From positions 1 to 64,000 of the forward strand of contig MEPB01000024.1 of NCBI GenBank assembly GCA_001769385.1: 64,000 bases of DNA. The letters run 5' to 3'. The notes beneath the pieces were generated by a model. It was given only the letters and a program-made list of their open reading frames with translations. It had not been told where the DNA came from and did no database searches. Both the position numbers and the translations under genes were made by a program. The DNA is from Bacteroidetes bacterium RIFCSPLOWO2_12_FULL_35_15 (lineage in GTDB: Bacteria; Bacteroidota; Bacteroidia; 2-12-FULL-35-15). Of this stretch, positions 5,573-61,270 are shown piece after piece (the first letter of the stretch is position 1; each line of letters begins with the position of its first letter).

Positions 5573-7906
5573 ATGAAACGTATTTTTTGTCTTACCGGAT
5601 TGCTGTTTTTGATAGTTAGTAACAGCTCCTGGGCCCAAACCGCAAAAAAATATTTTAGCAGTGGCGAAAAATATCAAACTGCAAAAAGCTATAATGAAGC
5701 AGTGGATAATTTTACCAAGGCAATTGAAATGGATCCCAATTATGTGAAAGCATATATTGCCAGAGCTGAATGTTTTGAAGTGCTGGGGAAGAAATCAGAA
5801 GCGGCAGAAGATTATAAAAGAGCAACAGTGTTTTCTCCCAAAGAGAAAGAATTGTTCTTCAAGGCAGGAAGCTTGTATTTTGATATTCAAAAATACCCGG
5901 ATGCTGATGTGATGCTTAAACAAGCAATAGATAGAGATGATAGTTATACCGAAGCTATTGACATCCGGTTAAAAACGCTCATCCAATTGAATAATTTTCA
6001 GGAAGGATTAAAGGTAGCCGAGTTGGCGCTTGCTATTAAAAAAACAGCAGTAAGCATATTCAATAGAGCCATGATGAATGATAGTTTAAAAAACTATAGT
6101 GCTGCCGAAAAAGATTATAAAGAATCGAAATATTTCGATTCGAAATACATTCCGGCTTATGTTGGTTTGGCACTCGTTCAGATCAAACTTAACAAAACAG
6201 ATGAAGCTCTTGGAATCTGTGAGGCGGCTCTTCTAAAAGTGCCAAACAGTAAAGAAGTTTTTTATGCAAGAAGTCAGGTATATTCTCAAAAAGGAGATTT
6301 TCAAAATGCAGTAAACGATATTACAAAAGTAATTGTAGGTAACGAAAAAAACAGTACAGCTTATTTTATGCGTGCTTCCTACTATCAGAAATTAGGACAA
6401 TGGCAAAATGCAATAAATGACTTTAACAAATGTTTAAGTATCGAACCGAACAGAAATTCTGCAATGATAGGGAGGGCAAATTCATATGAGCAATTAACTA
6501 ATTATTCTGCTGCAATAAAAGATTATGAAACCATATTGAAATCGGCAAGCACTGATGCAGTCAAACAAATGCTAAAAGCTGCCAAAGAAAAACAATTTGA
6601 TCTAAATCGTGAAAGCAATAAACCGGAAGTAGTTTTAACAAATCCGAGATCCGAAGGAACGACTGTAAAAATTGCAGGAAATAAAGCAGAAACAATTATT
6701 AAAGGATTAGTGAAAGATGCAAGTTCAATTAAGTTAATTACGGTGAATGATGTTACAGCAGAGTTTAGTAAAGATTCCATCAATCCGAAATTTGGCGTGA
6801 AATTAAATTTAGCAACACCCAAAGAAATAGTTGTAGTTGCAACAGATGTGTATGACAATACTCAAAAAACTACATTTGTTGTACAACGCACAGAAACAGA
6901 TCCCCCACTCATTGCGCTTACAACGCCTTATACTTCTTTTGATAATGAAGTGTCATTGGATAACACCAATCCTGAATTATACATCGAAGGAAAAGTCAAG
7001 GACGAGAGTTTGATCGAGTCTATCATCATTGATGGTGTTTCTGCCAGCTTCCCGTTACAAGGGTTGAACCCGTCATTTTCAGCTAAGGTTAGTATTGCTA
7101 ACAAGGATAAAATAACAATTGAAGTACGTGATATATATGGAAACGAACTAAAACAGAATTACAAATTGAATCGTGATGGAGCTTTAGCATCGCAAGATAA
7201 TCCGATGGGAAACACGTGGATGATCTTTATTGAAAACACGAACTATCAAAGTTTTCCTGTTTTAGAAGGGCCGGCAAAGGATGTTATTCTTATGAAATCG
7301 GCATTGGCAAATTATAAAGTAAGCAAGATCGTTCATAAGAAAGACATGACAAAAACAGATCTTGAAAAATTCTTTGCCATCGAATTACGCGACCTGGTTA
7401 AGAATAATAAGATCAATTCACTTTTGGTCTGGTATGCCGGTCATGGAAAATTTGTGAATCAAACCGGTTACTGGATTCCTATTGATGCAAAAACAGATGA
7501 CGAGTTTACTTATTTTAATATAAATAATTTGAAGGCATCCATGCAATCTTATTCTAATATTGTTCACACACTTGTGATCACTGATGCTTGCGAATCAGGA
7601 CCTGCGTTTTATTTAGCTATGCGAGATGCGCCAAAAGAAAAACGATGTGAAAATTGGGAAGAAACAAAATTTAAATCAGCACAAATATTTTCATCTGCAG
7701 GGTATGAATTAGCCGCAGATATTTCACAATTCACCAAAACATTCGCAGCAACTTTAAATAACAATCCGGATGGTTGCATCGCAATTGAAAAAATTGCAGA
7801 AAAAGTTTCAATAGCCGTAAAACAAACTGCCGCACAAGCACCTAAATTAGGTAGAATAAGCGGCTTGGAAGATGAAGGCGGAAGTTTCTTTTTTATGAAA
7901 AAGTAG
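5573..7906 (+). CDS. Exported TPR protein with C-terminal caspase-like (peptidase C14) domain
   Basis: A 777-residue protein from the ATG at 5573, chosen because it starts a clean signal peptide (MKRIFCLTGLLFLIVSNSSWAQ). About eight TPR units cover residues 20-340. Two beta-rich segments follow (around 365-455 and 460-545). A caspase p20-type domain starts near NTWMIFIENTNY (about 546). The catalytic dyad is visible as His in WYAGHGK (about 622) and Cys in TDACESGPAF (about 670). The signal peptide places it in the periplasm or at the surface. By family, it would cleave after a specific residue in a protein partner, possibly recruited by the TPRs. It lies 69 bases upstream of the SpoIIE sensor phosphatase and is probably co-transcribed, suggesting a joint signalling role. 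The target is unknown. Confidence 0.88.
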   Translation: MKRIFCLTGLLFLIVSNSSWAQTAKKYFSSGEKYQTAKSYNEAVDNFTKAIEMDPNYVKAYIARAECFEVLGKKSEAAEDYKRATVFSPKEKELFFKAGSLYFDIQKYPDADVMLKQAIDRDDSYTEAIDIRLKTLIQLNNFQEGLKVAELALAIKKTAVSIFNRAMMNDSLKNYSAAEKDYKESKYFDSKYIPAYVGLALVQIKLNKTDEALGICEAALLKVPNSKEVFYARSQVYSQKGDFQNAVNDITKVIVGNEKNSTAYFMRASYYQKLGQWQNAINDFNKCLSIEPNRNSAMIGRANSYEQLTNYSAAIKDYETILKSASTDAVKQMLKAAKEKQFDLNRESNKPEVVLTNPRSEGTTVKIAGNKAETIIKGLVKDASSIKLITVNDVTAEFSKDSINPKFGVKLNLATPKEIVVVATDVYDNTQKTTFVVQRTETDPPLIALTTPYTSFDNEVSLDNTNPELYIEGKVKDESLIESIIIDGVSASFPLQGLNPSFSAKVSIANKDKITIEVRDIYGNELKQNYKLNRDGALASQDNPMGNTWMIFIENTNYQSFPVLEGPAKDVILMKSALANYKVSKIVHKKDMTKTDLEKFFAIELRDLVKNNKINSLLVWYAGHGKFVNQTGYWIPIDAKTDDEFTYFNINNLKASMQSYSNIVHTLVITDACESGPAFYLAMRDAPKEKRCENWEETKFKSAQIFSSAGYELAADISQFTKTFAATLNNNPDGCIAIEKIAEKVSIAVKQTAAQAPKLGRISGLEDEGGSFFFMKK

Positions 7907-7975
7907 CTTGTTCCCATTTGAAGGGGGCAGGGGGATGAAGGAGGAATAATGATTTGCAAAATTCACTATTACATT

Positions 7976-10900
7976 ATGCGAACAAAAAAAATCTTAATAA
8001 GTGCTATTTCCAAATTAATCCTGTTTCTCTTTTTCATATCTTCCAATACATTTTCTCAAACCTATTCCTTCGATAATTATACTGTTCAGAACGGCATTGT
8101 GCAATCCAATGTTGCTGCCATTGTCCAGGATAATAATGGTGATATTTGGTTGGGAACAGGAAGTGGTGTTTCTCGCTTTAATGGAAAAACAGTTCAGAAT
8201 TATTCCACGGATGATGGTTTAGCAGATAACACTGTAACGGCTATGTTACTTGATAACAATGGATTTATTTGGTTTGCCCATGCAAACGGAGCGCTTTCAA
8301 AGTACGATGGTAAAAAAATCGAAGCAGTAAATTCAGAATTCCTTCCAAAAGATAAAAATATTTTTGCCTTGTATCAGGATAAACAAAGCCGAATATGGAT
8401 TTGCACTGAACAATTCGGAGCTATTGCAATAAAAGATCCGCAAGGCGACCTGACAGATAAAAATAATTATTTACACTATGCCAGTAAAGAAGGGTTAAGT
8501 GAATTTTGTTTTTCTGTATTTGAGGATGATCGTGGCAACCTTTTCTTTCTTACAGATATTGGAATTAAAACACTCGATCCTTCAACCGGAAAATTTCAAT
8601 TTTTCAGACCTGATGGTTTGCCTACCGGTTTAATTACCAGTTTTTTTCTTTCAAAAGATGGAAGTATTTGGCTTGGTTTGGCCAATGGTAATATTACCGT
8701 TTTAAATCCTGCTGTGGGCCCTTTGAATTTTTCTTATAAAGATTATTATGTAACACAATCAACTTTTTCAAACACAGGTTCCTGGAGTTTTATAAATGCT
8801 TTTATGCAAGACTCTAAAGGCGATATGTGGGCTGCTGTCTGGGATAGGGGACTTGTTCGCATTCATCTGAATAAAAAACAGGAACCGTCCTTCACTTTTT
8901 TTAATTCAACAAACGGCTTAAGCGTAAATAAAATAAAATGCATTGCTAACGATCGGGAAGGAAATGTGTTGTTTGGCACCATGGGAAATGGCCTTGCAAT
9001 ATTTAAAGGAGAAAAATTCACTTCCTTCACAAAGGAAAATGGCATCATCAACAATCAAATCTGGTCTGTGCTGCAAGATAAAAAAGGAAGGTATTGGTGG
9101 GGCACGAATGAAGGAATAACAATTTACGATCCTTCTGCTGAAAAAGGAAAGACGTTACGGAATATTTCCAAACTGGGAGAATTACCTGTTAATAGCGTTC
9201 GCGCAATGGCAACTGATAATACAGGAAACATCTGGATCGGTACATGGGGCGGAAAATTAGTGATGTATGATATTGAAAAGGAAAAATTTGTGATCAACCA
9301 ACAAGTGAATGATGCAACCTATACACACATCAGTTCAATTGCCACCGATAAACAAGGTAAATTATGGGTTGGAACACCTGAAGGAATTACAGTTTATGAT
9401 GTTTCGAACCGTAGTGTAAAAACTTATCGTACGGTTGACGGATTGAGTAGTAATGATATTACCAGCATTTTTCCGGATAGTAAAGGAAACATTTGGATGG
9501 GAACAAAACAGAAGGGGATCACCAAATTTAAAGATGGGAAATTCACTGTTTATGATAAATCAAAAGGGTTGAGTTATTTAGCAATTTCATGTATTACCGA
9601 AAACAAACATGGTGATATCTGGATTGGAACCGAAGGTGGTGGTGTGTTTTTATTTCACAGTAATTCGTTCTCCAATTATAAAGCAAAGGATGGATTAAAT
9701 TCTGATTTTATTACCTTGTTAAATGTTGATGAAAATAATAATCTTTGGATCGGAAGTAATAATGGGCTTAATAAATTTGATTATTCAAGTAATGTTATTT
9801 CCTCGTATTCAAAATTTGATGGATTCACCGGCATAGAAACCAAGAATAACGCAACCTTTAAAGACAAAGAACAAAACATTTGGTTTGGAACTGTTAATGG
9901 AGTATTTAAATATAGTCCGGCAAATGATACTAAAAACACCTTGGAGCCTATTCTTCGAATTACCCGGCTAAAAATAAATTTAAAAGATCATCCGATAACT
10001 GATACACTTGAACTCTCCTACAAAGAAAACTCATTAAATATTGACTATTCTGCTGTTTGTTTAACCAACCCTGATGCCGTTCAATATTCTGTTAAGCTTG
10101 AAAATTACGATGAAGCCTGGCGTCCGGCAACAAAACAACCATTTGAAATTTATTCAAATCTCTCTCCCGGGAAATATACGTTTAAAGTAATTGCTTGTAA
10201 TAATAGTGGATTATGGACAGCAAAACCGGTTTCAATTTACATTAACATCACCCCTCCTTTTTGGCAAACCGCTTGGTTTTATATAGTGTGCATTGTATTT
10301 GGTGCCTCCCTTATCTTTGGATATATAAAGATCCGTGAACGAAAACTGGTGAATGAAAAGCGTATTCTTGAAGAAAAGGTAGAAGAACGTACTGCAGAAA
10401 TTGCAGAACAGAAAAAAGAAATTGAAGAAAAAAACAATGATATTACCGCCAGTATCCGTTATGCAAAGCGAATACAGGATGCCATCCTTCCACCCGATGC
10501 ATTAGTGAGAACTCATTTGCCAAAAACATTTGTTTTGTTTAAACCAAAAGATATTGTGAGCGGAGATTTTTATTGGCTGGCGCATAAAAAAGATAAAGTT
10601 TTATTTGCGGCAGTCGATTGCACAGGACATGGGGTGCCAGGAGCTTTCATGAGTATTGTAGGACATAATTTACTTGATCAAATTGTTTCAGAACAAGGAT
10701 TAACACAGCCTTCCGAAATATTGGATGCCTTGAATAAGAGTGTTAGTGATACTTTGCGGCAAACATCAACGGAAGAACATGTAAAAGATGGTATGGATAT
10801 TTCATTGTGTTCCTTTGATCATATTACTCAAACCTTTGAGTGGGCGGGAGCTTTCAATCCATTGTATCTGATCCGTAAAGGAGAAATAATTGAAACCAAA

Positions 10901-11194
10901 GCAGATAAATTTCCGATAGGAAATTTAAAAGTCGGTGAACAGAAAAAATTCACAAATCATGTCTTCCCACTTGTAAAAGGGGATACACTTTATGTTTTTT
11001 CCGATGGTTTTGCCGATCAGTTTGGTGGGCCGAAAGGAAAAAAATTAAAATACAGTGTTTTCAAAGAAATGCTTTTAAGTATTCAACAGTTAGATATGGA
11101 AGAACAGGGCTCCTATTTAAATACAGCAATCGAAAAATGGAAAGGCGAATTAGAACAAGTGGATGATATTTTAATTATCGGCACACGATTGTAA
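7976..11194 (+). CDS. Two-component-type propeller sensor fused to SpoIIE/PP2C phosphatase
   Basis: A 1072-residue protein from the ATG at 7976, which gives a good signal peptide ending NTFSQ. An ATG nine codons upstream is possible. The exported part is a long run of Reg_prop blades of the type DNNGDIWLGTGSGVSRFNGK, ending in a Y_Y_Y domain. One membrane helix lies near residues 765-785, followed by a coiled coil (KRILEEKVEERTAEIAEQ) and a cytoplasmic SpoIIE-type PP2C domain from about 855. The metal-site motifs are intact: SGDFYW, VDCTGHGVPGAFMS, DGMDISL, DGFADQFGG and DDILIIG. Family knowledge says such domains remove phosphate from serine or threonine of an anti-sigma-antagonist-like partner. 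The SiaC-like protein encoded nearby is the obvious candidate substrate. The histidine-kinase module usual for Reg_prop proteins is absent. Confidence 0.92.
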   Translation: MRTKKILISAISKLILFLFFISSNTFSQTYSFDNYTVQNGIVQSNVAAIVQDNNGDIWLGTGSGVSRFNGKTVQNYSTDDGLADNTVTAMLLDNNGFIWFAHANGALSKYDGKKIEAVNSEFLPKDKNIFALYQDKQSRIWICTEQFGAIAIKDPQGDLTDKNNYLHYASKEGLSEFCFSVFEDDRGNLFFLTDIGIKTLDPSTGKFQFFRPDGLPTGLITSFFLSKDGSIWLGLANGNITVLNPAVGPLNFSYKDYYVTQSTFSNTGSWSFINAFMQDSKGDMWAAVWDRGLVRIHLNKKQEPSFTFFNSTNGLSVNKIKCIANDREGNVLFGTMGNGLAIFKGEKFTSFTKENGIINNQIWSVLQDKKGRYWWGTNEGITIYDPSAEKGKTLRNISKLGELPVNSVRAMATDNTGNIWIGTWGGKLVMYDIEKEKFVINQQVNDATYTHISSIATDKQGKLWVGTPEGITVYDVSNRSVKTYRTVDGLSSNDITSIFPDSKGNIWMGTKQKGITKFKDGKFTVYDKSKGLSYLAISCITENKHGDIWIGTEGGGVFLFHSNSFSNYKAKDGLNSDFITLLNVDENNNLWIGSNNGLNKFDYSSNVISSYSKFDGFTGIETKNNATFKDKEQNIWFGTVNGVFKYSPANDTKNTLEPILRITRLKINLKDHPITDTLELSYKENSLNIDYSAVCLTNPDAVQYSVKLENYDEAWRPATKQPFEIYSNLSPGKYTFKVIACNNSGLWTAKPVSIYINITPPFWQTAWFYIVCIVFGASLIFGYIKIRERKLVNEKRILEEKVEERTAEIAEQKKEIEEKNNDITASIRYAKRIQDAILPPDALVRTHLPKTFVLFKPKDIVSGDFYWLAHKKDKVLFAAVDCTGHGVPGAFMSIVGHNLLDQIVSEQGLTQPSEILDALNKSVSDTLRQTSTEEHVKDGMDISLCSFDHITQTFEWAGAFNPLYLIRKGEIIETKADKFPIGNLKVGEQKKFTNHVFPLVKGDTLYVFSDGFADQFGGPKGKKLKYSVFKEMLLSIQQLDMEEQGSYLNTAIEKWKGELEQVDDILIIGTRL

Positions 11195-11394
11195 TAATGC
11201 GACCCGGGATAGAAAAGATTAAAAAGAAAGATTATCTTGTCATATAACACTATTCAATAGTATTTAATTTAGTATTAAATAACAAGTCGTAAAGCTTTTG
11301 ATGGTTCAGAAAGTAATGATGTAACATGTTTTTTTTCTAATAGCAACGGAAACTGTTGGAGAGGAACAATCAAAAAAAATTACAAAATTTACAA

Positions 11395-13296
11395 ATGAAA
11401 AATTTACGGTCTATGATAAATAAATTATTTCTTTTTATTATTTCAGTATTATTTTTTTGCTCCTCCACATTTTGCTTTTCCCAGGATAGTGGTGCCGGGA
11501 AACTGATATTAAACGGCCTTGTTTATGGATTTAACCATGATCCCTCAAAGAAATTTCTTCAAAAAGAAAAACAAATTATTCTCGAAGGTACCTTAGAAGG
11601 CGTTTCAATAAATGTGTCCGAAAAAGGGAAATCAATATATACCACACGAACAAATAAAAATGGAGAATTTCTTCTGAAAATTAATCTTGGTAAGACCTAT
11701 AAAGTTGAACTTTCAAAACCCGGGTACACAAAAAATATATTACTAATTGATGTAAAATCAGTCCCTCCGGATATTGCTGCTTATGGCATCAGGTTTAGTG
11801 GTGCGGAACTTATCTTGAATAATTTTCAATCTAAAGATACTTCGCAAATAAATATTCCTTTCGGTAAATTGTATTATAATCCAAAGCTGAAGATTATGGG
11901 TTTTGAGGCAAATAAGGAAATGAGTAAAAAAGGAGTTTTGGCAAGGCGAGATGAAACAAATACCCATGTTTCGCTTATGAAACATGCAGTTTTAAAAAAC
12001 AGAAATGTCATACAGACAGGAAAAAAACAAGTACAGAAAAAAGAAATAGAAAAGGAAAAAGAAAAAAGTTTTTTAACTGACTCAATACTATACAACGAAA
12101 TAAATTCTGAATTTGACTTAAGTCAGGGGATTGAAATTGAAAACGTATCAGTAGATTATATAAAAAGTAGAGAATCAGAAATTCAAAAGGCCAGAGAGCA
12201 GCTTGAGCAAGATAAAATGAACGCAACTACTTTACAGGATAGTTTGATAATAAATGAAAATGAAGCATTGTTGAATTCCGCAGTAGTTGAACTCTCTCTT
12301 GCAAAGAAGGTGATTGAATTTCAAAAAAAGGATATTTCAAACCAGCGAAAATTATTGTTTTTTGCAATTTTTGGTATGTTATTCCTGATCGGCTTTTTGT
12401 TTCTGATCTACAAGAACTACAGAGAAAAAATAAAAACGAATATTCTCCTGAATGAAAAAAACAAAAAAATTACCGATAGCATTAATTATGCAAGCCGCAT
12501 CCAAAAGTCTATTCTATTGCCTGAAAATGAAATTAAAAAATTGTTGCCACAATCATTTATTTATTATCAGCCAAGAGATATCGTAAGTGGGGATTTTTAT
12601 TGGTTCGCTGAAGTAAACGAAGGTCGTGTTACACAAGAGCATATTGAAAAAAAGACATCTTCAGTTCAAACATCCGACTCCAAATTAATCATTATAGCAG
12701 CTGTTGATTGCACCGGACATGGTGTTCCGGGAGCTTTTATGTCATTAGTAGGTAACATATTGTTAAATGAAATAATAAATGAAAAGCATATTATACAACC
12801 TTCTTCCATCTTAAAATTACTGCATATTGGTGTTCTAAAGGCTTTGCATCAAAAAGAAGATGACTCACTCAGCCAGGATGGAATGGAAATGTCTTTATGT
12901 ATAATAAACCTTAAAAAAAATTACATTGAATTTGCCGGTGCCATGAATCCAATTTATGTTGTGAAAGATAATAGCGTGCACATTATTAAACCCGACATAC
13001 ATGGAATTGGCGGAGTGAGCCTGGGGGCACATAAAAATACGGAAGTGGAGTTTACCAACCAGGTTATTCCAATTCAGAAAAACATGTCGGTTTATATGTT
13101 TACGGATGGTTATGTTGATCAATTTGGAGGCACAGACAATAAAAAATTTAATACCAGTCAATTTAAGAGTTTGCTTTTGAGTATCCAATCAATGGAAATG
13201 GAGATGCAAAAAGAGGCAATTGAACAAGCAATGAAAACCTGGAAAGGGGATTACAGACAAACGGATGATATGCTGGTGATCGGATTAAAATTTTAG
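11395..13296 (+). CDS. Membrane SpoIIE/PP2C phosphatase with N-terminal CNA-B/carboxypeptidase-regulatory-like domain
   Basis: A 633-residue protein from the ATG at 11395; the longer frame would need a TTG. A signal peptide ends at CFSQ. A small beta-sandwich follows (about residues 60-122: EGTLEGVSINVSEKGKS, TRTNKNGEFLLKI), like CNA-B/carboxypeptidase regulatory domains. A charged coiled coil (258-318) leads to one membrane helix (about 320-339, LFFAIFGMLFLIGFLFLIY). The cytoplasmic SpoIIE-type domain (about 385-633) keeps SGDFYW, VDCTGHGVPGAFMS, DGMEMSL, DGYVDQFGG and DDMLVIG. It is probably an active Ser/Thr phosphatase controlled by an extracytoplasmic signal that differs from the propeller-type neighbour's. 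It is convergent with the SiaC/SiaB pair, separated by a repeat element. Its own promoter may lie in the 200-base gap upstream. Confidence 0.88.
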   Translation: MKNLRSMINKLFLFIISVLFFCSSTFCFSQDSGAGKLILNGLVYGFNHDPSKKFLQKEKQIILEGTLEGVSINVSEKGKSIYTTRTNKNGEFLLKINLGKTYKVELSKPGYTKNILLIDVKSVPPDIAAYGIRFSGAELILNNFQSKDTSQINIPFGKLYYNPKLKIMGFEANKEMSKKGVLARRDETNTHVSLMKHAVLKNRNVIQTGKKQVQKKEIEKEKEKSFLTDSILYNEINSEFDLSQGIEIENVSVDYIKSRESEIQKAREQLEQDKMNATTLQDSLIINENEALLNSAVVELSLAKKVIEFQKKDISNQRKLLFFAIFGMLFLIGFLFLIYKNYREKIKTNILLNEKNKKITDSINYASRIQKSILLPENEIKKLLPQSFIYYQPRDIVSGDFYWFAEVNEGRVTQEHIEKKTSSVQTSDSKLIIIAAVDCTGHGVPGAFMSLVGNILLNEIINEKHIIQPSSILKLLHIGVLKALHQKEDDSLSQDGMEMSLCIINLKKNYIEFAGAMNPIYVVKDNSVHIIKPDIHGIGGVSLGAHKNTEVEFTNQVIPIQKNMSVYMFTDGYVDQFGGTDNKKFNTSQFKSLLLSIQSMEMEMQKEAIEQAMKTWKGDYRQTDDMLVIGLKF

Positions 13297-13366
13297 CTGC
13301 AAAAAAGCTATTCAATAACAATGAAATAAAATAGTATCAAAGGCAACGATACAATGCTCCTGATAT

Positions 13367-13730
13367 TTAGGGTTCACTTAAAAAGTAAGGTTCCAAATAT
13401 TTGGAATCAATAATGTTTAATTTAAAAAAAAAGTTTGTTGGTTTGATGTGTGCGAGCTATGAGCAAACGCGATGTCGTTTCGCGGTGAACTCAATTTTTC
13501 TTGAAAGTCTTGGAGAGAGCTTTAGCTGCTCTCATAGACATTCAAAAAAATTGGGAGAGGAGTGGGGCAATCGTTTGCTCTTGATTTTTTGTTTCTTTTT
13601 CATTAAGGAAAAAGAAAAAGAGCCGCAAAGAAAAAGATTGTTTTGTGTTTAAATGTTTGCATTAAACACATACGAAATTTCTTGAAAGAGCCTATATTAT
13701 TCTTTTTCGTAATGATTGAGTGAACCCTAT
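13367..13730. repeat. Non-autonomous element with terminal inverted repeats, copy 1
   Basis: The segment starts TAGGGTTCACT (13368-13378) and ends AGTGAACCCTA (13719-13729), perfect 11-base inverted ends. It fills the 434-base gap between the second SpoIIE gene and the SiaC-like gene and directly abuts the SiaC stop codon. A diverged copy in the opposite orientation is at 18512-18909. Shared blocks include GAGCAAACG, GGTGAACT, CATAGACATTCA, AATCGTTTGCTC and AATGTTTGCAT, in the same order when one copy is reversed. An internal 83-codon frame exists, but I regard it as non-coding. The remaining bases, 13297-13366, show no feature. Confidence 0.8.
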
Positions 13731-14108
13731 TTAACAAACAACTAATTCAAAAGGGATCGTCAATATGCTTTTGAATTCACTTCCTTTTATTTCCATTAAA
13801 TCATCGTTTTCGTTATAACACCAGACGATTTTAATTTCATTACCAGTCTTTGTTATTTCTTCAAGCTGAATAAGAAGAACCATAATTTGTTTTACAGAGC
13901 TGGAATTAAAATATTCAAGGTTTATCCTGAATTCAGTGGAAGGATTTGGATTTTTTATATAATTGGCGATCCATGCAATAATTGGTTTATAAAATGATGC
14001 AGCATCTTCTGGCAATGATCTGCCGCTAAGACTAAATTCATTTTTGGATATGTCAAATACTACCTGTGGTGTATCTTCTGTTCCTTCTAATTTAAATATC
14101 TTTTCCAT
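13731..14108 (-). CDS. siaC: SiaC-like regulatory phosphoprotein (DUF1987)
   Basis: A 125-residue cytoplasmic protein without signal or membrane segment. It matches the SiaC/DUF1987 family: GRSLPEDAASFYKPIIAWI, INLEYFNSSSVKQIM, LLIQLEEI, and an acidic tail of the type NENDDLMEIKGSEF. In Pseudomonas SiaC is phosphorylated by the kinase SiaB and dephosphorylated by the SpoIIE-type phosphatase SiaA, and the unphosphorylated form binds its output enzyme. The region around YFNSSS is the conserved phospho-switch region. It starts five bases after the SiaB-like stop, so the two are translationally close. No diguanylate cyclase is in view, so the output partner is unknown. The 3' end touches a repeat element, which may have replaced its native terminator. 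Confidence 0.85.
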   Translation of the reverse strand: MEKIFKLEGTEDTPQVVFDISKNEFSLSGRSLPEDAASFYKPIIAWIANYIKNPNPSTEFRINLEYFNSSSVKQIMVLLIQLEEITKTGNEIKIVWCYNENDDLMEIKGSEFKSILTIPFELVVC

Positions 14109-14113
14109 AATTA

Positions 14114-15211
14114 TTACACAGTAATGCTCAATGAAAAAAATGATAATGAATCAGAATAGGGCGTGAACTGATATTTTAATTTCTCGCTACTATATTTGCT
14201 CATCTCAATTAATCCAATTCCAGCGTTTCCAGCCTGATCCGTTTCCTTGTTTAGGATCCTTTTTTTATAAATTTCAGCTAAGCCATTTTTATCTAGACTT
14301 ACCAGGTTTTCCAATTCGTTTTTCAATGATTCAACATCATTGATATCAACATAGTTGCCTGTATTAAGAGTATATCGGTTGTTTTTTAAAGCGATCATAA
14401 ATATTCCTTCACGTATTCCATTATTTTCTTTTGCGTGTTTGCTTATATTTTGAAGCACTTCAATAAGTAAGTAGAGTGTCTTTTTTTTGAAAGGAGGCAA
14501 TTTTTTATTTAAATCCAGATTACTTTCAATAAGCTCAATAAGTGGGAGAATAGCGTGTTGTGAAAAATCTCCTTTTCGAATCATTAAAATGTTCTCCTGA
14601 ACCATTGCATTATAAAGCTCTTTAGTGCTTTTTAGCGTAACAGTATCAATGTTATCCTCTTTTTCTTCATTAAAAGTCCCAAGTCGAATCTGCATAAAAA
14701 AATTGGAAAGAAAATAATTAATAAATTCAAAATCAAATTCGAGTTTTGAATCTGATTTCCTTGCCATTTCTATGAGGCCGAGACCACCACCTCCTTTTTC
14801 GGTAAATCCGTTATTGGTTAAAGCATTTAAGTAATCTGCTTTCAATTCTTGCGGAGTAAATTTATTTATAGAATTGAGTTTTGATGTTAAGCCGGTGCTT
14901 TTTGAATTTTCAATTAAGTTGGTTGAACCTATATAAAATACATTTCCAATGTTTCGGACCAAAAACATTTTAGGTTTATTGTTTGTAATATTAACTATTT
15001 CAGGTTTATCAGCATGCCGGATAATATTTTGAAAACATTCAGCGATCAGGAAAGATAATCTCTTTTTGAATATTTTAGGATCCCCGATACCGGCTTCACT
15101 TAAACGCATCAGGGTGGATGTTAATTCATCATCAAATTCACCCATATAAATAAGGCTGAAATGGTCATTTCCCAATTTTTTAAAAAACCGATATGATAAT
15201 TCAGGATTCAT
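14114..15211 (-). CDS. siaB: Tandem-duplicated SiaB-like protein kinase (DUF6272), two GHKL-like domains
   Basis: A 365-residue protein, about twice the length expected of a SiaB kinase. The first half has an N-box-like AECFQNIIRHAD and a G-box-like GGGGLGLIEMARKS. The second half repeats both as IEVLQNISKHAKE and NAGIGLIEMSKYS, at matching spacing. So two SiaB-type ATP-binding domains are fused in one chain. By family, SiaB phosphorylates SiaC, opposing a SpoIIE-type phosphatase. Here the SiaC-like gene follows after five bases, and two SpoIIE genes converge on the pair. Both halves keep the Glu, Asn and Gly residues expected to bind Mg-ATP, so both may be active. No membrane segment is seen. 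The ATG at 15211 is preceded by an AT-rich leader. Confidence 0.85.
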   Translation of the reverse strand: MNPELSYRFFKKLGNDHFSLIYMGEFDDELTSTLMRLSEAGIGDPKIFKKRLSFLIAECFQNIIRHADKPEIVNITNNKPKMFLVRNIGNVFYIGSTNLIENSKSTGLTSKLNSINKFTPQELKADYLNALTNNGFTEKGGGGLGLIEMARKSDSKLEFDFEFINYFLSNFFMQIRLGTFNEEKEDNIDTVTLKSTKELYNAMVQENILMIRKGDFSQHAILPLIELIESNLDLNKKLPPFKKKTLYLLIEVLQNISKHAKENNGIREGIFMIALKNNRYTLNTGNYVDINDVESLKNELENLVSLDKNGLAEIYKKRILNKETDQAGNAGIGLIEMSKYSSEKLKYQFTPYSDSLSFFSLSITV

Positions 15212-15531: not shown

Positions 15532-15605
15532 GGGGGATTAGCTCATTTGGCTAGAGCGCTTCGCTGGCAGTGAAGAGGTGGTCGGTTCGAATCCGATATT
15601 CTCCA
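15532..15605 (+). tRNA. tRNA-Ala, anticodon GGC
   Basis: The 74 bases fold as a complete tRNA. The acceptor stem GGGGGAT pairs with ATTCTCC, including two G-U pairs. The D arm is GCTC/GAGC. The anticodon stem CTTCG pairs with TGAAG around the seven-base loop CTGGCAG, giving anticodon GGC. The T arm is GTCGG TTCGAAT CCGAT. The discriminator base is A and the CCA end is not encoded. It decodes GCC and, by wobble, GCU. Confidence 0.95.
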
Positions 15606-15610
15606 CAAAC

Positions 15611-18476: not shown

Positions 18477-18511
18477 TCAAAGCATAACGCCAATTCTGAT
18501 TATTCCCATTA

Positions 18512-18909
18512 TATAGGGTTCACTCAGACACTAAGAAAAGCAATGTTGTCGGATCATTTAAGCCTTTTTTGCTTTATTTGATGCAAACATTTCTATTAAA
18601 AACATGAAATTTCTTTGCACCTTTTTTCTTTTTTCATGATAAAAAAGAAACAATTCTTCAGAGAAGAACTAGAGCAAACGATTCCTCCTCGCCTCTCTCC
18701 ATTTTTCTGAATGTCTATGTGCGCGTCTAAAGCTCGCACCAAGACCTTCATAAAAAATGAAGTTCACCCCGACTCTGCAGAGCCTGTCCTGAGCAAAGTC
18801 GAAGGGCGTTTGCTCATTCCTCACACGCGTTTTCAAAATAACATTTTTCTGAAAATTATGCACCATTGATTTGCGCTTACTTTGCGGGACTTTTTGAGTG
18901 AACCCTATA
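18512..18909. repeat. Non-autonomous element with terminal inverted repeats, copy 2 (inverted relative to copy 1)
   Basis: It starts ATATAGGGTTCACTCA and ends TGAGTGAACCCTATAT, near-perfect 16-base inverted ends. Its reverse complement aligns with 13367-13730 through most of its length (GAGCAAACG, GGTGAACTT, CATAGACATTCA, AATCGTTTGCTC, AATGTTTGCAT). Relative to copy 1 it carries about 25 extra bases near 18775-18808, containing CTGAGCAAAGTCGAAGGGCG, a nested short repeat. It makes up most of the 609-base gap between the M1 peptidase and the TPR gene. The rest (18910-19033) shows no gene. Confidence 0.8.
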
Positions 18910-58057: not shown

Positions 58058-61000
58058 TTAAAACCGAACTCCGATCACTAAAATATCATCCACCTGTTCA
58101 ACATCTTTTTTCCAATCTTCAATAATTTCACTTAGTTTTTTGCCTTGCTCCTGAAGCGATAAATTTTGTAATTCGGTTAATGTATCTCTTAAACGTTTGC
58201 TTGAAAACTTTTTGCCTTTCTCTCCACCAAACTGGTCAACAAATCCATCCGTAAATAAATAAAAGGTATCGCCTTTTTGCAGGTTAACTACATTGTTTGT
58301 GAACTCAAATTCTTCTTCTAATTGAAGTCCGCCAATAGATTGTTTGTCTGCTTTTATTTCTTCAAAAACATACCCTTCTTCTTTTTTTCTAAAAAGATAT
58401 AATGGTCGTTTTGCACCGGAATATTCCAATGTATTATCGGTAAAATCAACAACAGCTAAAGCCAGGTCCATTCCATCTCTTGACTCGTTGGAATCGGTAT
58501 CCTGTTTTAATGATTTCCGGATTCCTTTATGTAATTTTTTAAGGACCGTAGCGGCATTGTTTAATCCTTTTTTACCCACAATTTCATTTAACAAGGAACT
58601 TCCGATCATACTCATAAAAGCTCCCGGAACACCATGCCCTGTACAATCTACTGCTGCAATATAAATTTTTTCGTTCTTTTTATTGAACCAATAGAAATCC
58701 CCGCTTACCACATCACGGGGTTTAAACAAAACAAATGAATGTGGAAAAGCTTTTTTAATATCTTTATTTAATGGAAGTATTGCTTCCTGAATTTTTTTGG
58801 CATAATTGATACTGTCTTTAATATCTGTAAAAGCAACCGAAAGCTGATCATTGGCTCCTTTCAATTCAACGGTACGCTCTGTAACTTTTTCTTCGAGAAC
58901 TTTCTTATCCTTTGCTAATTGAGCAGTTTGGTAATTTATATATCCAAAAACTGAAACTACTACAATTAAAATAGACAGTGTATAAAACCACCAGGTTTTC
59001 CACCAGGGCGGTTTTATTGTAAATGAAAAATTCACCACATCATTGCTCCAGACACTATTACTATTTACTGCTTTCACCTTAAATGTATATGACCTGCCCG
59101 GATCGATATTTGTATAAGCGGCCTCTGTATTTGTTGATAATGGCGACCAGTCTTCATCCTGACCCTCGAGAATAAAAGTATATTTTACATTGTCGGTAGT
59201 GAATGCCTGAAAATCAAATGTCAGGTTATTATTTTTATGTGAAAGAATTAAATCTACAGGCAAGTTGGTCATTGGGTCTATTGAGTCTGAAAAATTCTTC
59301 CAGTCAACAGTTTGATATGCCATACGAATACTGTTTAAATGCAGTTTAGGTGAAGTACGATTCGGAACATCATATTTCCTATAGTACCTGCATAAACCAT
59401 TTTGTGTTCCAAACCAAACAGTGCCTTCGCTGTCCTGGGAAATAGCATTTTGATTTATTTCATTTCCTTTGTATCCCTCTTGTTCACCATAATAGCGTAG
59501 CGATTCTATTTCAAAATTTTGCTTGAGCTTTAGTTTGTTAACCCCTTTATCGGTTCCTACCCAAATGCTATTATTGTGTTCATCAAATAATAATGCAGGG
59601 ATATAGTTGGAGCAAAGTCCATCTTTTATGGAGATGGATTTAAAAGTTTTTCCATCAAAACAAGATAAACCACTTTCACCGGTTCCAAAAAACATGTTAC
59701 CATTTTTATCTTCCGAAATTGACCAAATGGTTTTATCTGAAAGTCCATCCTTTTCTGTATAATTCACAAAATTTGTCCCATCGTATTTTACAACTCCTGC
59801 ATCCTTTGTCCCAATCCATATATTTGATTTCGAGTCTTCAAAAACTGACATGATGTTATCAGTAACGAAGCCATTTTTTTTATTAAAGGTTGTTACTTTA
59901 CCATTATTTATTTTAAATATTCCTGAACCATAAGAAGCGATCCAGATATTGTTCTTTTTATCCTGAATAATTTTTAATACAGCAACCAGTTTTGTGCTAT
60001 CAAAAGAAGTGTATTCTTTTATGATCTTATAATTATCCTTAACTTTTTGCAATACAAAAATACCTTCCTGCGTTCCTATCCAAATATTTTTTTCGTTATC
60101 AGAAAGAATTGTATAAACAACACTCTGATCGATCTTTTTTAGATCAGGTGAAACGTAGAACTGATTGGTTTTCGAATTGAAAAAATTTAATCCTTGCCCT
60201 GTGGTACCGATAATGTAATTTTCATTATCGTATTGATAAATATCGCTGATGCTCTTGCTGGTTAATCCATCTTTATCATTATAATTTACAAATGATTCGT
60301 TGTTGAATAAATTTACTCCGCCACCTTGTGTACCTGCCCAAATGTTATCTTCATAATCAACACTTATTGAATTAACTCCATTAGAGGACAATCCTTCTTT
60401 TTCAGTAAAGAGATGAAATTTATTGCCTTCAATTTTTAACATTCCATGTAAGGTGGCTAACCAAAGATTTCCTTTTTTATCTTCGGCAATGCTACCGAGA
60501 AAATCATTTTGAACGCTTTCCGGTAATATTATTTTTTGAAAGGATGTCCCGTTGTAACGTACAAGTCCATCTCCAATGGAGCCAAACCAAACATTACCTC
60601 TGGAGTCGGTATAAGAACAAAAAAATATTTTTTTATTTATAAAATCTATATTATCAATAGTTGTTATTTTTTTTCCATCATATTTTGCAATACCATTTTC
60701 AAGACTAAACCACAAATTTCCTTTTTTATCTTCTGAAATACTAAATACCAGATTGGAGGACAAGCCTTCGTTTGTTGTCAGGTAGGTAAAATCAGGATTA
60801 GTTCCTTTTGCTTTGTTCAAGTCAAGCCTTGCAACTCCGCCCCCTCTTATTGCTATCCATAACACATTTTTACTGTCAACATGCAACCAATAAATACCAT
60901 CATTAACATGCAAACCTTCTTTTTCAGAAAAATTAATAAAGTTTAATCCATCAAATTTTGAAATCCCTGCTGAAGTAGCAATCCAAATATTACCATGCTT

Positions 61001-61270
61001 ATCTTCTTCAACACAGGTAACTTCATTTGCAATTAAGCCATCATCTTTCGAATAATTTTTAAATGTTTTTCCGTTGAATTTACTTACACCTCCACCTTGC
61101 GTTGCAAACCACATATATCCTTTACTATCCTGAAAAATATTATTTACCGTAGAGTTGGCAAGGCCGTTTTTTGTGGAGAAATTCTTGAAATTATATTGCT
61201 GGGCAACAGACAGATTTATCTGAAAAAAAGAAAGAAAAAGGAGAAATAGTATTTGTTTTAAAAACTTCAT
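58058..61270 (-). CDS. Propeller sensor fused to SpoIIE/PP2C phosphatase (third copy)
   Basis: A 1070-residue protein of the same plan as that at 7976. The signal peptide ends NLSVAQ. A long Reg_prop propeller follows (FQDSKGYMWFATQGGGVSKF, EDKHGNIWIATSAGISKFDG), then a Y_Y_Y domain (FILEGQDEDWSPLST), one helix (about residues 761-780), a coiled coil (KKVLEEKVTERTVELKGAND) and a SpoIIE-type phosphatase from about 847. The metal motifs are intact: SGDFYW, VDCTGHGVPGAFMS, DGMDLAL, DGFVDQFGG and DDILVIG. It probably dephosphorylates a SiaC-like or related partner in response to an external signal. No kinase or partner gene is adjacent. The next gene upstream is a T9SS protein in the same orientation. 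Confidence 0.92.
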   Translation of the reverse strand: MKFLKQILFLLFLSFFQINLSVAQQYNFKNFSTKNGLANSTVNNIFQDSKGYMWFATQGGGVSKFNGKTFKNYSKDDGLIANEVTCVEEDKHGNIWIATSAGISKFDGLNFINFSEKEGLHVNDGIYWLHVDSKNVLWIAIRGGGVARLDLNKAKGTNPDFTYLTTNEGLSSNLVFSISEDKKGNLWFSLENGIAKYDGKKITTIDNIDFINKKIFFCSYTDSRGNVWFGSIGDGLVRYNGTSFQKIILPESVQNDFLGSIAEDKKGNLWLATLHGMLKIEGNKFHLFTEKEGLSSNGVNSISVDYEDNIWAGTQGGGVNLFNNESFVNYNDKDGLTSKSISDIYQYDNENYIIGTTGQGLNFFNSKTNQFYVSPDLKKIDQSVVYTILSDNEKNIWIGTQEGIFVLQKVKDNYKIIKEYTSFDSTKLVAVLKIIQDKKNNIWIASYGSGIFKINNGKVTTFNKKNGFVTDNIMSVFEDSKSNIWIGTKDAGVVKYDGTNFVNYTEKDGLSDKTIWSISEDKNGNMFFGTGESGLSCFDGKTFKSISIKDGLCSNYIPALLFDEHNNSIWVGTDKGVNKLKLKQNFEIESLRYYGEQEGYKGNEINQNAISQDSEGTVWFGTQNGLCRYYRKYDVPNRTSPKLHLNSIRMAYQTVDWKNFSDSIDPMTNLPVDLILSHKNNNLTFDFQAFTTDNVKYTFILEGQDEDWSPLSTNTEAAYTNIDPGRSYTFKVKAVNSNSVWSNDVVNFSFTIKPPWWKTWWFYTLSILIVVVSVFGYINYQTAQLAKDKKVLEEKVTERTVELKGANDQLSVAFTDIKDSINYAKKIQEAILPLNKDIKKAFPHSFVLFKPRDVVSGDFYWFNKKNEKIYIAAVDCTGHGVPGAFMSMIGSSLLNEIVGKKGLNNAATVLKKLHKGIRKSLKQDTDSNESRDGMDLALAVVDFTDNTLEYSGAKRPLYLFRKKEEGYVFEEIKADKQSIGGLQLEEEFEFTNNVVNLQKGDTFYLFTDGFVDQFGGEKGKKFSSKRLRDTLTELQNLSLQEQGKKLSEIIEDWKKDVEQVDDILVIGVRF

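Follow-up and report, generated by a model that had tools for sequence, protein, structure and literature searches.

Two probably independent signalling modules, a caspase-phosphatase pair and a fused SiaABC-type switch, adjoin in a Bacteroidota genome

Five neighbouring genes in the window (the whole stretch of 64,000 nucleotides that was analysed) encode an exported caspase, two SpoIIE-type phosphatases, SiaC and a double SiaB protein (Table 1), and they raise the question of whether we are looking at one signalling system or two. A preliminary description had joined the caspase, both phosphatases and SiaC into a single system. Based on gene content, module separability, conservation, catalytic motifs and topology signals, we find it probable that the region instead holds two independent modules, A (5573-11194) and B (11395-15211); the reactions set out below for each of them, with their direction and outputs, are predictions. 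Domain searches confirmed the positions and domains of all five genes as first described, as well as the gap of 69 bases between the caspase and propeller-SpoIIE genes and the different sensor of the second phosphatase (SpoIIE2), where a short carboxypeptidase-regulatory-like region replaces the propeller. The SiaC and SiaB genes had been called a convergent pair; they are in fact co-directional and 5 bases apart, and it is on SpoIIE2 that both converge. Promoter and terminator scans gave results at chance level, and no clear insertion repeats were found at the flanks of module B.

Table 1. Features of the five-gene region, with related genes at other loci
Feature	Position	Strand	Remarks
Exported TPR-caspase, module A	5573..7906	+	777 aa; signal peptide; caspase domain at about residues 540-777
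Propeller sensor phosphatase, module A	7976..11194	+	1072 aa; Reg_prop, Y_Y_Y, one TM helix, SpoIIE/PP2C
SpoIIE2, module B	11395..13296	+	signal peptide, carboxypeptidase-regulatory-like region, TM helix at about residues 320-338, SpoIIE/PP2C
MITE-like repeat between SpoIIE2 and SiaC	13364..13734		probably incidental
SiaC (DUF1987), module B	13731..14108	-	predicted phosphosite Ser69 in YFNSSS
Double SiaB (SiaBB), module B	14114..15211	-	365 aa; two DUF6272 kinase-type domains
tRNA-Ala(ggc), boundary marker	15532..15606	+	directly 3' of module A in G023
TerB-like/ABC_tran/ABC2_membrane protein	L121:11511-14603; L143:9941-13036; L052:2523-5588		adjoining SiaC genes

The caspase assignment is the weakest by eye, and we judge it sound. 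The domain alone matched PF00656 with an E-value of 6e-15 and 56 bits (cut-off 21.4). The motifs YAGHG and DACESG are both present, and their His and Cys residues (H94 in YAGHG and C143 in DAC.SG) are invariant across 18 relatives, and the dyad is intact; proteolytic activity is predicted from these motifs. The predicted structure is weak (pLDDT 52), yet a fold search with it still matched caspases; being unfit for geometry, the model was used for this fold-level match alone. Against the model for EACC1-associated caspases (NF047832) the protein scored 42 bits, well below the cut-off of 140. Its signal peptide was taken from the sequence MKRIFCLTGLLFLIVSNSSWAQ. Since a genome-wide PF00656 search missed the window's own caspase, relatives were sought by alignment instead. 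Their N-terminal regions vary, with TPR repeats here and shorter or unassigned regions elsewhere. TPR-only relatives (L127-L137) have neither a caspase domain nor SpoIIE neighbours and were set aside. One genome (G166, L241) carries eight tandem genes of the window-caspase family.

The partner of the caspase has 11 Reg_prop repeats, a Y_Y_Y domain and a SpoIIE match at E 5e-19. A caspase-domain scan showed that a propeller-SpoIIE gene lies directly downstream on the same strand in 17 of 27 caspase-related loci, the window not counted, a figure biased by the use of peptide patterns taken from caspase-linked members. The spacing in these 17 loci is usually 4-90 bp, with one locus cut by a contig end. 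The paired loci come from 16 genomes besides our own, including MAGs titled Bacteroidales and Chlorobiota, so that the same-strand pair is found in 17 Bacteroidota/Chlorobiota genomes. By chance, such pairing is expected in about 1% of cases, as calculated from 52 SpoIIE in a genome as large as ours, with the gene number estimated. The paired caspases are only about 30% identical and their neighbours otherwise differ, with gene order and short spacing kept; likewise, the size of the propeller-SpoIIE is constant while the N-terminal parts of its partner caspases vary. When 394 genomes were sampled evenly over the phylum, the strongest caspase relatives examined outside the genus had no adjacent propeller-SpoIIE. 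This indicates that the pair, real and conserved beyond the window, belongs to some lineages and is no general rule for caspases. In one related lineage (L156:4616-7126, with its relatives L157, L160, L164 and L166), two conserved genes, one Kelch-like and one unassigned, lie upstream of the pair. The window itself holds a further propeller-SpoIIE gene (58058-61270) with neither a caspase nor a Sia gene beside it.

Module B is a SiaABC partner switch in a variant, fused form. In the SiaABCD system of Pseudomonas aeruginosa, which consists of the phosphatase SiaA, the kinase SiaB, SiaC and the cyclase SiaD, biochemical work on the first three components has shown that SiaC is phosphorylated at Thr68 (PMC7647112, PMC8457831). 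The SiaC of module B matched PF09345 at E 6e-38 and had the solved P. aeruginosa SiaC as its best match; its score of 86 bits against the NF038265 equivalog (cut-off 150) makes it a family member and does not imply orthology. Its Ser69 aligns with Thr68, and of the 20 SiaC proteins in the alignment, 19 have S or T here. SpoIIE2 has a SpoIIE match at E 6e-16 with the motifs DCTGHG, FTDG and DD. DCTGHG, F(S/T)DG and DD are retained in both SpoIIE proteins of the region, with a difference in one inner motif, which is DGMD in the propeller protein and DGME in SpoIIE2. The neighbouring kinase matched DUF6272/SiaB twice (E 5e-56) and scored 208 bits against NF038262 (cut-off 85), as a SiaB-family kinase does. 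Its C-terminal half matched the solved SiaB 6kko, which was also the best fold match of the predicted model. Both halves contain E..QN, and the stricter glycine box is in the N-terminal half. A search with HATPase_c_2 brought up no other kinase with a link to the locus.

The arrangement of module B recurs. Among the 20 double SiaB genes that were read, 19 loci could be assessed, and in 17 of these, including one from another family of the class (G089), a SpoIIE gene faces SiaC on the opposite strand. In a tree of SiaB halves, all 20 N-terminal halves formed one group (support 99), the C-terminal halves formed two, and single-domain SiaB proteins fell outside, from which we conclude that the double SiaB is an old and stable fusion. 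Among the 394 phylum genomes only one besides our own had a full-length double SiaB at threshold, so this variant is largely confined to the window's lineage. A SpoIIE/SiaC/SiaB partner switch lacking SiaD is thus present as first proposed, with the double SiaB as its kinase, and it is likely to work as a SiaABC-like cycle. A 79% copy of the MITE-like repeat (about 371 nt, inverted ends AGGGTTCACTTAA) sits on contig 22, flanked by a SpoIIE gene and a SiaB gene (L055:4420-4791), and the window has a further, partial copy at 18509-18772.

Whether A and B belong together was judged mainly by looking for each without the other. The closest genome with the locus, G023, has a caspase 89% identical and a propeller-SpoIIE 82% identical to those of the window, with the flanking genes in the same order. 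There, the tRNA-Ala and the next gene follow module A directly, at 41 bp against the window's 4,334 bp, which hold SpoIIE2, SiaC and SiaBB. The difference may be either a gain in the window or a loss in G023, and as the locus is common to these two genomes only, separability at the exact site rests on one comparison. Elsewhere, the caspase-propeller pair occurs without a SiaC/SiaBB module in L107 as well, and SpoIIE2-SiaC-SiaBB occurs in other surroundings without a caspase in G017 (71/72/74% identity), G004, G006 and others, as well as on contig 40 of our own genome, where a second such block is found. Unlinked occurrence in relatives, which the preliminary description had named as evidence against its proposal, is therefore largely what was observed. 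The reading in which both SpoIIE sensors act as phosphatases of one SiaC, with the caspase in the pathway, draws on the adjacency of the five genes in the window and on how well the propeller-SpoIIE scores against the SiaA profile (218 bits; cut-off 700). It also draws on propeller-SpoIIE genes of similar size upstream of single SiaB-SiaC in L051, L121, L122 and L143, and on one distant MAG (L169, 2207-4589) in which 172 bp separate a SiaC gene from a divergent caspase gene of the window-caspase family, an arrangement that its relatives L168 and L170 do not show. Against it stand the G023 locus, the lack of a caspase beside the SiaBB module at every other place read, and the tree placement of the two phosphatases. 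Their catalytic domains fall in different groups: three SiaBB loci supply the phosphatases that group with SpoIIE2 (support 99), and the propeller protein groups with its G023 ortholog alone (support 100). We therefore regard a single integrated system as very unlikely, although two modules could cooperate, or make contact in trans, without conserved linkage.

Within module A, the caspase could alternatively be an effector, a killing or degradative enzyme merely co-expressed with the propeller phosphatase. Its intact dyad would suit this role, and its relatives often lack SpoIIE, including those in tandem arrays. We nevertheless consider it unlikely, since the same large partner is kept while the caspase N-terminal parts differ, and since the protein is exported with no obvious secretion domain and no link to a cytoplasmic output. 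The linkage might also reflect no more than common descent of a few loci, with no functional coupling behind it. Caspase-linked SpoIIE domains do sit in few tree groups (3 changes needed against a shuffled mean of 15.7), and a single common clade was not rejected (p-AU 0.18); the pattern bias of the scan and the absence of linkage from the even phylum sample point the same way. However, caspases this divergent keep order and short spacing across 17 genomes with otherwise different neighbours, and descent alone appears an improbable explanation.

The signal sequences at the N-termini, together with single TM helices, place the PP2C domain on the inner side of the inner membrane and both the caspase and the propeller on its outer side, where the caspase can reach the sensor but not SiaC. 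It had been offered as an output or a sensor-processing protease; as an exported protein it is unlikely to be the output of a switch with cytoplasmic SiaC, and it most likely belongs to the input side. Gene order and topology suggest that it could act on the phosphatase: it may cleave or bind the propeller sensor, or make its signal, and the cytoplasmic activity of SpoIIE would change as a result. That the caspase acts directly on the propeller is possible, at somewhat less than even chances. In module B, the double SiaB kinase would phosphorylate SiaC at Ser69, SpoIIE2 would dephosphorylate it once its own sensor is triggered, and unphosphorylated SiaC would then bind a partner other than a diguanylate cyclase. 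SiaC occurs somewhere in each of the 16 caspase-pair genomes that were tested; this allows SiaC as a target of the propeller-SpoIIE and is weak evidence, given that SiaC is common in the group.

With regard to output, our genome has 52 SpoIIE matches, 15 SiaC matches (about 13 intact domains) and 12 DUF6272 domains by profile search. Most of its Sia genes cluster with SpoIIE, some in SpoIIE-SiaB-SiaC rows, and these clusters include SiaB-SiaC (L059:6605-7567) and SiaC-SiaC (L057:10428-11249) fusions and two double SiaB genes. A genome-wide search detected no GGDEF protein, and 34 of the 36 genomes in the genus likewise gave none. The lack of SiaD noted in the preliminary description thus extends to the whole genome, and the Pseudomonas output is unavailable here; with about 13 SiaC domains present, there must be other outputs for SiaC. 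Beside the SiaC of single-SiaB modules lies a gene for a protein of about 1,030 aa that combines an ABC ATPase and an ABC-2 membrane domain with a weak match to TerB. In four genomes outside the genus (L183, L184, L185 and L191) this gene is convergent with SiaC at a distance of 8-81 bp. The distance is 236-1,560 bp in four genomes belonging to the genus, and in our own genome the gene is 271 bp from one that encodes a SiaC fusion; it is not near module B. This transporter is a candidate output for other SiaC copies. The phosphatase set of the genome is unusually large for its few known phosphoprotein partners, and one SiaC is fused to an unassigned region of 245 aa (L052:5859-6962).

Propeller sensors of the Reg_prop/Y_Y_Y type are periplasmic parts of Bacteroidota hybrid two-component systems, whose output is a histidine kinase and regulator. 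Module A has the same sensor type, but its output is a SpoIIE phosphatase. Its caspase shares the Peptidase_C14 domain and His/Cys dyad with orthocaspases and EACC1-associated caspases, and differs from other bacterial caspases in its export, TPR repeats and propeller-phosphatase partner. Module B resembles SiaABCD in its SpoIIE/PP2C phosphatase, SiaB-type kinase and SiaC with Ser/Thr at the phosphosite, with solved SiaC and SiaB as best matches. In contrast to SiaABCD, it has two SiaB domains per chain, no SiaD, and a phosphatase with another sensor facing SiaC from the opposite strand. Phosphorylation and dephosphorylation of its SiaC are predicted by analogy. The logic of phosphatase, GHKL-type kinase and STAS-like phosphoprotein is also that of RsbU/RsbW/RsbV and SpoIIE/SpoIIAB/SpoIIAA, and SpoIIAB chains were among the fold-search matches of the double SiaB; here, however, SiaC/DUF1987 replaces STAS and no sigma factor is linked.

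No description of either module or of the five-gene combination was found in the open-access literature searched, and in this sense both of the conserved modules are apparently undescribed. The SiaC papers found there concern one bacterium and one output, a diguanylate cyclase. As a speculative and rather unlikely extension, the exported caspase might directly gate the transmembrane propeller phosphatase. Signals would then cross the membrane from protease to phosphatase and enter one of many SiaC switches with an output other than c-di-GMP, for some SiaC copies perhaps the TerB-like ABC-2 transporter. With the caspase/propeller-SpoIIE pair, one can test directly whether phosphatase signalling can be driven by a caspase of the envelope, which, if true, would be a role for a bacterial caspase other than cell death.
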